DNA of 26,204 nt. Source: a virus. Position 1 is the stretch's first letter. The number at the start of each line of letters is the position of its first letter. The notes under the pieces are model-generated. The model saw nothing but the letters and a program-made list of their open reading frames with translations, was not told the DNA's origin and made no database searches. The stretch lies in the IMG/VR virus record IMGVR_UViG_3300046804_000075, positions 1-26,204 of that record, one strand, 5' to 3'. The position numbers and the translations under genes are program-made. Positions 2,766-26,139 of the stretch are shown one piece after another.

Positions 2766-3410
2766 TTAGGCCCATGTTCCAACGCTAGTGTTAGCGCCTG
2801 ATGCGCCAATAGGATAAATCAAGAAGTAGCTACCTGCCGCTGTTGTGTACGCACCACCCGGCGCTGCCGACAATGTGTACTGCGGTATGAACGTGCCGCC
2901 AGCGTTGACAGAAACTGTACCCTTTATATTGTAAGTTTTGGTTTGAGTTGCTGCGGACGATGAGCCTTGGCTAAAGGTTGTGTTTGCCGCAGTTTGGATA
3001 TAGATGCCAATCGTACCTACACCATCGGTCGTAAAAGAAGTATTTGTACCGACAAAAACTCCTGAATATGCAATATTGTTTAGTGTTGCCGTGCCGCCAA
3101 ACCCCAGCCCTACTGAATGACTAGTAGTGCCAGCAGATTTACTAAGCGCATATACAGCTTCAAACGCATACACCGTACTCGCAGACAGTGTTACACCAAC
3201 ACCAAGCACGTTTTGCGCTGTGTTGACGTTAGCACCAGCCAAAGCGGAATCTAGACGGAAGAACTGCGCTCCCGGAACAACACCACGCTGAGTGCCTTGA
3301 GGCGTTGCGTAAAACACCTTACCGTCATAATCAAACGCACCTGCAACGGCTGTGCCTAGCGTATCTGCGTTCAGGATAAAGTTATCTGTGCCGCTAATCG
3401 TGACTGCCAT
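2766..3410 (-). CDS. Tail fibre/tip structural protein
   Basis: A 214-residue protein almost wholly made of beta-prone, Gly/Ala/Ser/Thr-rich sequence with few charges, starting MAVTISGTDNFILNADTLG and ending SGANTSVGTWA. An aromatic-rich central part (STVYAFEAVYALSKSAG) and a C-terminal YFLIYPIG element resemble C-terminal domains of phage tail fibres and structural proteins. It is the third of a run of beta-rich genes sharing MAVT or MSSL starts. Role inferred: a distal fibre or receptor-contact protein. Host specificity cannot be deduced. Confidence 0.65.
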   Translation of the reverse strand: MAVTISGTDNFILNADTLGTAVAGAFDYDGKVFYATPQGTQRGVVPGAQFFRLDSALAGANVNTAQNVLGVGVTLSASTVYAFEAVYALSKSAGTTSHSVGLGFGGTATLNNIAYSGVFVGTNTSFTTDGVGTIGIYIQTAANTTFSQGSSSAATQTKTYNIKGTVSVNAGGTFIPQYTLSAAPGGAYTTAAGSYFLIYPIGASGANTSVGTWA

Positions 3411-22959: not shown

Positions 22960-23220
22960 TCAGCACTTCCATCGTTTGAGCGCCGCTTTGGCGCGTTCAC
23001 CGTCTTTCGCTTTCGCTGCCACTCCAGACATGCGAGCACAAAAGGATTTTTTACGACCTTCATCTTCCTTCGTCTTGGGGTGCGGTGCCGGCGCCTTCAG
23101 GTTTGAGCCCGTCTCGCGGTTGTACTTCTCCCGCCCCTTGGCAGTCAGACCCGCGCCTTTACTGACCGGCAGCTTCTCGCCCCGGCCAACACTCAATGAC
23201 ACGCTCTTTTTCGTTGCCAT
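22960..23220 (-). CDS. Small basic protein, DUF6321-like
   Basis: An 86-residue basic protein. The pattern AGLTAKGREKYNRETGSNLK, APAPHPKTKEDEGRKKSFCA, RMSGV and a final LKRWKC matches the phage family I remember as DUF6321. The ATG at 23220 overlaps the terminase stop as TGATG; a GTG at 23223 would add one residue. The conserved Cys in SFCARM and the terminal Cys stand out. Function unknown; the position between terminase and portal suggests a packaging or head-assembly accessory. Confidence 0.72.
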   Translation of the reverse strand: MATKKSVSLSVGRGEKLPVSKGAGLTAKGREKYNRETGSNLKAPAPHPKTKEDEGRKKSFCARMSGVAAKAKDGERAKAALKRWKC

Positions 23221-24758
23221 CACGCCCCCATCCAGCCTGTTGCGGCCACTTGCCGCTGGCCATACCCATCACTGCGTCGCGCTGTCCGCTCGAAGCTAGA
23301 CTCCCGGCTAGCCACCGGGAACGCGAACGTCACTGCCAGCGCGTCGGCTGCGTCCGGTGACGCCAACCCACGCGACTTCATCTCTTTCTTGCCTTCCAAG
23401 TAGATCGTACCCGACGAGTCGGGCTTCTTCATGGGGCCAGTCAAGTCGGCTTTGAGCTGCCGGTCGTTGGGGATGCTGGCCGTTTTGAGCCACTCCTTCA
23501 TTGCGCCCCACATCTCAGCGCGCTTGTTGCCCCACATGACCGGTTTGCTCGACTTCCAGCCGAAGTTCACTCCCCGCACCTTGTATCGCTGTTCTTTTAA
23601 TCTGTCAAGTATCCCGTAACCCAGACCGCCCTCGTCGATGATGGTCAGCGCCGGGCGGTACTCTTCGATCGCATCAATCACGCGGCCTACGGTCGTCATG
23701 GTGTCCTCGCCGTGGTAGCGCTTGATTGCCACTAAATCCCGCCCTTGTCTGACGACGATGACGGTCGCGTCCGCACCGCCTCGAGCCGGGTCAACGCCGA
23801 CAATAATTGGCGCCGTCTCATCCTTGTATTTTGGCCGACTGGCGGCGTCGTCGACAGCACTCGCACCAATAAACTGATCTTCGCCAGCTGATGGAAACTC
23901 TCCGTAGACTTCAACCCGAGCCTGTGGCGAATCCTCGCCATATTCCGCAATGATCTGCTCATATATCTGCTTGTCCGTATCCTCGACTGTGCGTGAGTCG
24001 ATGTTCTCTGTCTGCCAGAAGTTGCGCTTGGCGTGGAAACACTCGTAAAAGTAGCCCTGGTTGCGCCGGGGGTTGGAGAACGCGAACCAGTACCGGTCTA
24101 AAATGGGTTCCGTGAAGAAGCCTGCACCAACCGACCAGATGGCGTCGGGGATACCGCTTGCTTCGTCGAAGATCAGCATCATGCCGTCGTGGTTGTGGAC
24201 ACCCGCGTAGCTGTCGGGGTTCTCTTCCGACCAGAGCTTGCCCTCGGCTGCCCAGTAGCGTGTGCCCTTCTTCAAGTCACGCTCGACCAGTTCAGTCAGC
24301 CACTTGGCAGGCACCAGCTTCGTTGCGCTGATTTCCCACCAGTGGTTGTTGATGATCATTGCCTGCCACTTAGTCAACTCACCCCAAGTGACTGACCGCA
24401 GCTGCGCCTCACTGTTGGCGCTGACGATCACACTCGATCCGATGCGGGTCGACAGCATCCACAAGACGAGCCAAGAGACGAGCGCGGACTTACCGATGCC
24501 TCGACCGGACGCCACCGCAGTGCGTAGGGCGTCCATATCTAGCTGGCCTCGGTTGTTCTTGATGTGCGTGGCGATCCTGCGCAGTATCTTGCGCTGCCAA
24601 GTGCGTGGGCCTTTGAATTTAACCAGTGGCGTGTTGGGCTGCCCCCACGGGAACGCGAACAGCACGAACGCCTCGGGGTCGTCAGCGATGGTCGGCGCCC
24701 AGAGGCGCGTCATTAGGAGCTGCTCGCCCTCGGCGTCATAGATCGGCTGTTGCGCCAT
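23220..24758 (-). CDS. terL: Terminase large subunit (TerL)
   Basis: A 512-residue packaging motor. The ATPase domain carries a Walker A-type loop ASGRGIGKSAL (83-93) and Walker B MMLIFDEAS (193-201). The motor coupling region follows with FAFSNPRRNQGYFYE. The RNase H-like nuclease domain shows GVDPARGGADATVIVVRQGR (Asp323), TIIDEGGLGYG (Asp375) and the late SPDAADAL motif (467-474), giving the usual acidic triad. It cuts concatemeric DNA and pumps it through the portal. The start overlaps the upstream 189-aa gene by 1 nt (TAATG). Length and motifs are complete. Confidence 0.95.
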   Translation of the reverse strand: MAQQPIYDAEGEQLLMTRLWAPTIADDPEAFVLFAFPWGQPNTPLVKFKGPRTWQRKILRRIATHIKNNRGQLDMDALRTAVASGRGIGKSALVSWLVLWMLSTRIGSSVIVSANSEAQLRSVTWGELTKWQAMIINNHWWEISATKLVPAKWLTELVERDLKKGTRYWAAEGKLWSEENPDSYAGVHNHDGMMLIFDEASGIPDAIWSVGAGFFTEPILDRYWFAFSNPRRNQGYFYECFHAKRNFWQTENIDSRTVEDTDKQIYEQIIAEYGEDSPQARVEVYGEFPSAGEDQFIGASAVDDAASRPKYKDETAPIIVGVDPARGGADATVIVVRQGRDLVAIKRYHGEDTMTTVGRVIDAIEEYRPALTIIDEGGLGYGILDRLKEQRYKVRGVNFGWKSSKPVMWGNKRAEMWGAMKEWLKTASIPNDRQLKADLTGPMKKPDSSGTIYLEGKKEMKSRGLASPDAADALAVTFAFPVASRESSFERTARRSDGYGQRQVAATGWMGA

Positions 24759-25327
24759 TACTTAACCCCAACGTAATCACGCACTCGGTTCAAAATGCCT
24801 AGTTGCGTTGGCGTGTACATTTGTTCGGCGTTGTCCCACTGATTAAAGGTATACCCCCTAAAAAGCTCCGGCAGTCCGGTACGTTCTTTCCATATTTCGT
24901 AAGGGCGTTTTTCACCAAATTTTTTCCTGTGCTGTTCGTACCGTTGCCGCAATACGTTAGGGTCAACATTGGCTTCAAATTCTGCGTATAGCGATTGCAA
25001 CGTGGGGTCTGCATTGACGGCGTGGTGGCTTACATAATCCGCAAGAACATCAATAGGCCGCGTTTTATTACTAAGAATTTGAATGCCTACTTTACCCATT
25101 GGAAGTTCTTTTGGGCGCGGGTACTGCGGCGACCCCGGTTCATCGGGCGGATAAAACTCTAAAAAACGATTGTCTTTAGGGTTTATGGTGGTCACGCTAT
25201 GAATGTCTTTATCCGCAAGATAAGGGTACGCTTGCAACGCGCGGTCAAACGTTGACATGGGCGGCGTAATTGTAGCGCGTTGGCGCAGTGTATTAACCGA
25301 CGGCGGTGCGAGTGCGTTCTGCGGCAT
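24758..25327 (-). CDS. Unknown protein inserted between small and large terminase genes
   Basis: A 189-residue protein with no family I can name. Distinct blocks are KELPMGKVGIQILSNKTRPI, DVLADYVSHHAVNADPTLQS and YEIWKERTGLPELFRGYTFN followed by QWDNAEQMYTPTQLGIL. The C-terminal part resembles, from memory, a domain in large phage virion proteins (the pattern F-RGY-F-QW...MYTP.Q). The ATG at 25327 overlaps the preceding gene by 35 nt, with GGAG about 10 nt upstream; ATG 25258 is an alternative without a Shine-Dalgarno. Its DNA looks more A+T-rich than both terminase genes, which suggests later acquisition. Confidence 0.7.
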   Translation of the reverse strand: MPQNALAPPSVNTLRQRATITPPMSTFDRALQAYPYLADKDIHSVTTINPKDNRFLEFYPPDEPGSPQYPRPKELPMGKVGIQILSNKTRPIDVLADYVSHHAVNADPTLQSLYAEFEANVDPNVLRQRYEQHRKKFGEKRPYEIWKERTGLPELFRGYTFNQWDNAEQMYTPTQLGILNRVRDYVGVK

Positions 25328-25742
25328 TTTCCAAATACTCCGGTTGCTGTTCCGTAATCAGCCCGTCGATGACGCGCTCTTGCGCCTGTTGCAGCGCCTG
25401 CGTGATGCTGATCTTGTTGGTGATGTCGACACTAATCTCTTGGCGGGCTGTCCAGCCGTGGGCGTGCTGCAGGATCGCCAACGCTGCTTTGGCGTCGCCA
25501 GAACGTGCTGCTTCACGCAGGTGGGAGCTGGCCTCCATCTCGCTGTCGGCGCGGCCCTTCAAGACCGCCATGTCCGCTGCCGGGTCTAACTCGCACAGCT
25601 GCCTGAACTCTTGCGGCAGCATCCCGGCGGCCAAGGCCAACGAGTCGCCCTTCAGACCCAAGGCGGCAGCGTCATAGATCGCCTGAAGACGCGCCTCAGT
25701 CGCCTCTATCTTGCGCGGGGTGAAGGGGATGGATTTGAACAT
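25293..25742 (-). CDS. terS: Probable terminase small subunit
   Basis: A 149-residue, helix-rich protein. An N-terminal helix-turn-helix-like region (about residues 12-55, AIYDAAALGLKGDSLALAAG, LPQEFRQLCEL) could bind the packaging site. It is followed by SEMEASSHLREAARSGDAKA and ALAILQHAHGW, a pattern found in small terminases and related phage DNA-binding proteins. A C-terminal segment (ISITQALQQAQERVIDGLI) may oligomerise. It is the first gene of the late operon, one gene upstream of TerL. No clear Shine-Dalgarno precedes the ATG. It could instead be a regulator, but position favours TerS. Confidence 0.72.
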   Translation of the reverse strand: MFKSIPFTPRKIEATEARLQAIYDAAALGLKGDSLALAAGMLPQEFRQLCELDPAADMAVLKGRADSEMEASSHLREAARSGDAKAALAILQHAHGWTARQEISVDITNKISITQALQQAQERVIDGLITEQQPEYLENAAERTRTAVG

Positions 25743-25769
25743 GGCTGGATATTAGCGCATTTGTGGGTC

Positions 25770-25787
25770 ATGTTGGCAAGGTTGGCT
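25770..25787 (+). repeat. 18-bp direct repeat, left copy
   Basis: ATGTTGGCAAGGTTGGCT matches the sequence at 26109-26126 in 17 of 18 positions. It consists of two 9-bp units with the core GTTGGC. It sits 28 bp upstream of the TerS start and flanks the control region. Confidence 0.7.
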
Positions 25788-25813
25788 TTCTACAAAAAAT
25801 AAAAAAATTTCTT

Positions 25814-25842
25814 CTGATACCGCCGTAGCCGAGACCGGCCAA
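25814..25842 (-). promoter_or_regulatory. Weak candidate sigma70-type promoter for the late operon
   Basis: On the minus strand TTGGCC (-35-like) and TATCAG (-10-like) are separated by exactly 17 bp and point toward TerS. Each hexamer matches the consensus at only 4 of 6 positions. A late phage promoter may need an activator, so a weak match is possible, but chance is a serious alternative. Confidence 0.22.
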
Positions 25843-25864
25843 GCGATGGCCCCCCACCCCCCAG

Positions 25865-26020
25865 GTTAGTAAGCACTCACTTACAGTTGCCAGCCAGGCA
25901 AGTTAGTAAGCACTAACTAACCAGGTTAGTGAGCACTAACTTCGCCAGTTAGTAAGCACTAACTAACTGCCCAGGTTAGTAAGCACTCACTTTTTGGCGA
26001 GCGGGTTAGTGGTCACTAAC
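25865..26020. repeat. Array of six 16-bp dyad repeats (iteron/operator-like)
   Basis: The consensus is GTTAGTnnnnACTAAC, with spacer usually AAGC. Copies are at 25865, 25902, 25925, 25948, 25975 and 26005 (first base). Start-to-start distances are 37, 23, 23, 27 and 30 bp. Copies 1 and 5 share an identical longer unit with ACTCAC in the right arm; copies 2 and 4 share another, ending ACTAACTAAC. Each is an inverted repeat suited to a dimeric DNA-binding protein. Both iteron (replication initiator) and operator roles are possible. Confidence 0.88.
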
Positions 26021-26029
26021 ATAGGGCTG

Positions 26030-26056
26030 GGGCCCTTTTGCTTAGGGCCCTTTTTT
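26030..26056 (+). terminator. Terminator-like hairpin, rightward
   Basis: GGGCCC, a 9-nt loop, GGGCCC, then TTTTTT. This is a 6-bp all-GC stem with a U-tract on the plus strand. No plus-strand gene lies just upstream, so it would stop rightward transcripts crossing from behind the late operon. Because GGGCCC is itself a palindrome, the structure may instead reflect the repeated GGGCCCTTTT unit. Confidence 0.4.
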
Positions 26057-26078: not shown

Positions 26079-26087
26079 TGTGGATAA
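26079..26087 (-). promoter_or_regulatory. DnaA box (TTATCCACA)
   Basis: The minus strand reads TTATCCACA, identical to the strict E. coli-type DnaA box. It lies in an A/T-rich stretch next to the dyad array. A single 9-mer can arise by chance, but the context supports host DnaA binding at an origin. Confidence 0.6.
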
Positions 26088-26108: not shown

Positions 26109-26139
26109 ATGTTGGCAATGTTGGCTATGTTGGCTATGG
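26109..26139 (+). repeat. 9-bp tandem repeats (ATGTTGGCn x3), right copy of the 18-bp direct repeat
   Basis: Three consecutive 9-bp units with the core ATGTTGGC start at 26109, 26118 and 26127, with a partial fourth. The first two match 25770-25787 in 17 of 18 bases. Nine-bp phasing could seat a repeated DNA-binding protein. Confidence 0.7.

Follow-up and report, generated by a model that had tools for sequence, protein, structure and literature searches.

The window, meaning the whole stretch of DNA analysed here, is a linear IMG/VR record of 26,204 bases with P22-like late genes encoded on the minus strand. Close to its right end, upstream of the terminase genes, a row of six palindromes occupies 156 bp. 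The locus raises the question of which protein recognises such a row and what purpose the binding would serve. The features needed to answer it are listed below.

Across the window, minus strand: P22-like late genes (terL, portal, scaffold, major capsid protein, head closure)
23220..24758, minus strand: terL, terminase large subunit (phrog_2, E 3e-45)
25293..25742, minus strand: terS-like gene, 149 aa, before terL, with a helix-turn-helix and homologues before terL in relatives; no PHROG match
25749..25754, minus strand: likely terS promoter –10, TAATAT, read from sequence and conserved in relatives
25793..25862, minus strand: block in the array-terS interval, strongly conserved in relatives, with an A/T tract, a GGAGG-like core (ACGGAGG) and a G-rich run
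25865..26020, no strand: array of six palindromes, probably of SlmA type (SBS-like), upstream of terS; about 170 viral contigs have arrays like it
25865..25884, no strand: site 1, GTTAGTAAGCACTCACTTAC, 18/20 to the E. coli SBS consensus (PMC4423959)
25902..25921, no strand: site 2, GTTAGTAAGCACTAACTAAC, 16/20 to the SBS consensus
25925..25944, no strand: site 3, GTTAGTGAGCACTAACTTCG, right half degenerate, 16/20 to the SBS consensus
25948..25967, no strand: site 4, identical in sequence to site 2
25975..25994, no strand: site 5, GTTAGTAAGCACTCACTTTT, 16/20 to the SBS consensus
26005..26020, no strand: site 6, a shorter 16-bp form, GTTAGTGGTCACTAAC (minus strand GTTAGTGACCACTAAC, whose first 11 bases equal E. 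coli SBS17 GTTAGTGACCATTTACTTAC)
26079..26087, minus strand: consensus DnaA box TTATCCACA (TGTGGATAA on the plus strand), the only perfect DnaA 9-mer of the window

A sequence-only reading had described the row as six copies of a 16-bp dyad, GTTAGTNNNNACTAAC. Four copies are exact and two carry one mismatch, and at up to two mismatches eight matches were found versus 0.75 expected (maximum of five in 100 shuffles), so the array is well beyond shuffled chance. The two alternating sub-types reported at the same time were also recovered: GTTAGTAAGCACTCACTT is common to copies 1 and 5, while copies 2 and 4 are identical. The dyads are thus real, but the 16-bp unit turned out to be a shifted, off-centre part of a longer one. 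Alignment with relatives gives a 20-bp palindrome, GTTAGTRAG-YR-CTYACTAAC, centred on a two-base pyrimidine-purine step that is mostly CA/TG, with TA and CG also present. Copies 1–5 fit this 20-mer at 20, 19, 17, 19 and 18 of 20 positions, and the shorter copy 6 at 15/20 in the same frame; no site above 15/20 was found in positions 1–25800 of the window.

The palindrome resembles the sites of SlmA, a TetR-type nucleoid-occlusion protein with a 12-bp SBS core in E. coli, GTGAGTACTCAC (PMC3116907). The SBS consensus GTAAGTGAGCGCTCACTTAC is bound with a Kd of 25 nM (PMC4423959). Sites 1–5 match this E. coli consensus at 16–18 of 20 positions, in keeping with the SBS pattern of a 20-bp palindrome around a GTGAG-YR-CTCAC core, and the lineage-wide logo agrees. 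The array shares with E. coli and V. cholerae SBSs the same palindrome and the same pyrimidine-purine centre, and site 6 coincides with SBS17 over its first 11 bases. The arrangement is different: chromosomal SBSs are scattered, 24–52 per nucleoid, whereas the phage array holds six in 156 bp. Judging from these similarities, we consider it likely that the array sites are of the SlmA type.

Arrays of 2–13 SBS-like sites were found in about 170 IMG/VR contigs. A tandem-site pattern matched 110 viral contigs and a pair of perfect 12-bp cores matched 64, compared with none for the reversed-palindrome control pair; the symmetric half-site derived from 307 distinct sites is G T (A/T) A G T (G/A) A G Y. 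Most phage records that were searched whole have their sites in one cluster, and a second cluster, apart from the terminase, is present in L068 and G455. Using eleven queries for recognition of TerS or TerL in 171 array loci, we found the array upstream of terS/terL in every one of the 141 loci with a recognisable terminase; in 29 others no terminase was recognised in the sequence examined, partly because the contig or locus ends there. These loci contain seven TerL types (window, L068, L007, L009, L037, L064 and L106) whose identity to one another does not exceed about 36% or which blastp does not align, all of them PHROGs terminase large subunits. Since the window-type loci are redundant, far fewer than 141 cases are independent, though these span seven TerL types. 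Among cultured phages no array was detected by blastn, and those with the closest terminases have different dyads or lack them altogether; the end of the window found no nucleotide match in the phage collection.

A total of 257 Gb of GTDB genomes contained 25 perfect 20-mers, including matches in a window-type phage contig (L214) and in a phage-like contig with two sites (L196). L214 sits in a beta-proteobacterial MAG that encodes SlmA (273.7 bits, above the curated cut-off; the closest PDB chains are SlmA) and L196 in a different MAG, likewise SlmA-encoding, with misbinning of the phage contigs possible in both cases. The SlmA recognition helix SEAALYRHF is identical to that of E. coli in 11/11 proteins examined, including the one from the L214 MAG, and SlmA is encoded in all 11 tested genomes from the family to which this MAG belongs (in our reading, Burkholderiaceae). 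In a class-wide genome sample, SlmA was encoded in 9/9 motif-enriched genomes versus 6/18 without a motif match (Fisher p ~0.001 by our own calculation, with groups chosen afterwards). Class-wide motif counts were near control, and Burkholderiaceae chromosomes are mostly without enrichment (63 matches versus 88 in the control by our tally, G019 and G055 excluded). G055, of the same family as the L214 MAG, has 26 matches versus 7 in the control and is a candidate host lineage. Several of the 25 GTDB matches fall in actinobacterial chromosomes, singly or in pairs, and with such near-identical palindromes there, the binder could be a different TetR protein. Two to five similar tandem palindromes were also seen in actinobacterial chromosomes at L197 (1158–1304), L199 and L207–L209; these are probably operators of another TetR protein.

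What might a phage achieve with a cluster of SlmA sites? We propose, as an evenly balanced proposition, that the array is a host-SlmA site cluster that blocks host division on phage replication. SlmA dimers would bind the 20-bp palindromes, and replicating phage genomes, present in tens to hundreds with about 5–6 sites each, would outnumber the host SBSs, so that host SlmA would be drawn to phage DNA all over the cell. As known from E. coli work, SlmA disassembles FtsZ when it is bound to an SBS; Z rings would then no longer assemble, which would keep the host from dividing through phage DNA that is being replicated or packaged. Six sites on a hundred phage genomes amount to about 600 sites, and E. 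coli has about 500 SlmA dimers for the 24–52 SBSs of a nucleoid (PMC3573117, PMC4117426). In E. coli, multicopy tandem SBSs cause a global, lethal, SlmA-dependent division block, the lethal effect having been seen at about four-fold native SlmA (PMC3573117, PMC4117426). The plasmids pHC534 and p2SBSK resemble the phage arrays in placing tandem SBSs on multicopy DNA, but they are laboratory constructs, whereas the arrays are natural and their effect is only predicted. We infer both the binding of the array by host SlmA and the division block as a selected trait, as well as the step from sites to block; that the block is the main function of the array appears to us about evenly balanced or slightly less probable than that.

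The strict position of the array upstream of the terminase genes is unexplained by division control alone and hints at a further connection to late transcription or to packaging. In the window, the terS-like ATG lies about 120 bp and the likely terS promoter about 110 bp to the left of the array; the –10 is six bp from the ATG, so the late mRNA is likely to be leaderless. Host SlmA, or a TetR protein of the host that is related to it, might bind the array mainly for control of the late/packaging operon or for packaging itself, whether as an activator, as a repressor freed by replication titration (a timer based on copy number) or as an accessory to packaging like IHF at lambda cosB. The location near the likely terS promoter, with the array upstream of terS/terL in all scorable loci, speaks for this, as does V. 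cholerae SlmA, which activates the chb promoter from an SBS 167 bp upstream (PMC5519180); in E. coli, however, lacZ was unaffected when an SBS lay upstream of the promoter (PMC3573117), and array-terS/terL distances vary from about 0.1 to 6 kb among lineages. We regard control of late genes or packaging as the principal role as rather unlikely, while some effect of the array on late promoters is possible. The same neighbourhood brings to mind lambda cosB and pac, which also have repeated sites beside terS, and the conserved block between array and terS is a possible cos/pac candidate or promoter-proximal element. These elements are bound by TerS, but the phage array motif does not follow TerS. 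Phages with unrelated TerS types share one motif, whereas phages of a single TerS type can have GTTTACRTAAAC in its place with almost the same recognition-helix region (L337 LPTEYRRLIQLD, L031 LPSEYRQLTQLD). Likewise, L007-type TerS is found with SBSs in L300, L301, L288 and L317 and with GACCCASTGGGTC-like dyads in L359 and DSL-LC05, and in the TerL tree L300, with SBSs, is sister to DSL-LC05. Contig ends are scattered, with none fixed near the array. Since unrelated TerS share the motif and near-identical TerS helices adjoin a different dyad, recognition of the array by TerS as a cosB or pac element is improbable.

The remaining alternatives are close to what the sequence-only reading had favoured, namely an origin or operator bound by a dimer of a phage initiator or repressor. 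The perfect DnaA box that it placed within about 70 bp of the array is indeed there, with TGTGGATAA 59 bp past the array, and in three near-complete relatives (genomes of 36–37 kb) the only perfect DnaA box lies 78–160 bp from the array. Overall, 48 of 95 window-type loci have a DnaA box within 300 bp of the array versus 0.25 expected. The box is real and conserved in about half of the clade, which makes an origin at the array possible, with the DnaA box and iteron-like sites bound by an initiator or by SlmA. Against this, nearly all arrays of other lineages are without a neighbouring DnaA box, cumulative GC skew in the three relatives shows no turn at the array (a weak indicator, given arbitrary contig starts), and no initiator gene tied to the motif was found. 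The rarity of the box beside arrays of other lineages indicates a separate feature of the window's clade; we accordingly rejected it as a part of the general array, and we give the origin explanation little weight. As to the binder, a dimeric DNA-binding protein remains the right kind of candidate, but a phage origin for it looks improbable. Clustered dyads are typical of operators, and many phage proteins have no PHROG match or named function, so a phage-encoded repressor or activator might have escaped recognition. Nevertheless, a TetR_N domain was absent from 12 array-bearing phage records other than the window, blastp revealed no initiator gene tied to the motif in array-bearing phages and, at its sensitivity, no candidate regulator common and restricted to them (partly complete genomes, six lineages), and the motif fits a host SlmA site. 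An operator of a phage-encoded regulator is very improbable.

Comparison of array motifs with terminase phylogeny points to replacement in place. A sister clade of window-type TerL phages, with TerS 52–60% identical to the window's, has GTTTACRTAAAC arrays where the window has its own, ahead of the window-type terS (L329–L353 and L216), and no SBS at that position. In the TerL tree, the GTTTAC group forms one branch (91/100) among SBS phages; four rows are labelled ‘none’ by the strict pattern in this tree though sites are present. A third dyad, GACCCASTGGGTC-like, was observed upstream of L007-type terS in L215 (DSL-LC05; 2853–3382) and L359 (3543–3635). Together, the TerS pairings and the TerL tree indicate that the motif was replaced at least twice, and host change would be the simplest reason. 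The same kind of row at the same place in many unrelated phages suggests that phages may stop host division with bare DNA sites. In a broader and more tentative form, for which we see somewhat less than an even chance, many lineages would have independently gained arrays of nucleoid-occlusion sites upstream of terminase, swapping the array sequence on host change, as a protein-free division stop or as a packaging timer that works via a titrated division regulator.

Phage interference with host division is also exerted by lambda Kil, T7 Gp0.4 and T5 Hdi. These are FtsZ-inhibiting proteins, and the division inhibitors of phages that we came across in the literature are proteins too, whereas the array would act as DNA only, via a host protein; recruitment of a host FtsZ antagonist by a DNA array would be a new route, and we found no paper in the open-access literature searched that links SlmA sites with phages. 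If the division-block proposal is true, such a cis-acting array would be easily acquired and readily missed by gene annotation, would allow tests of what multicopy SBSs do in nature, would provide uncultured phages with a host-range marker (SlmA-encoding proteobacteria), and would link cell-division control with the packaging region.

Several minor observations concern the surroundings of the arrays. Two relatives are circular by overlap. Fixed contig ends were considered as proof of a cos site and rejected, as true ends near terS are scattered and the apparent end of L033 was not a real contig end, its array lying at 16.6 kb of the contig. In the window, 9-bp direct repeats of ATGTTGGC type flank the array (25770–25787 and 26109–26135), and similar TGTGGGNCA repeats are present in relatives. 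Between the array and the DnaA box (26030–26056), two GGGCCC runs are followed by T6, resembling a terminator. In L082, a tRNA-like sequence has apparently been inserted in the interval between the conserved block and terS. Finally, L034, L041 and L046 (66-kb and 97-kb phage contigs) have SBS-type sites spaced 28 bp apart, adjacent to genes that encode D5-like helix-turn-helix paralogues.
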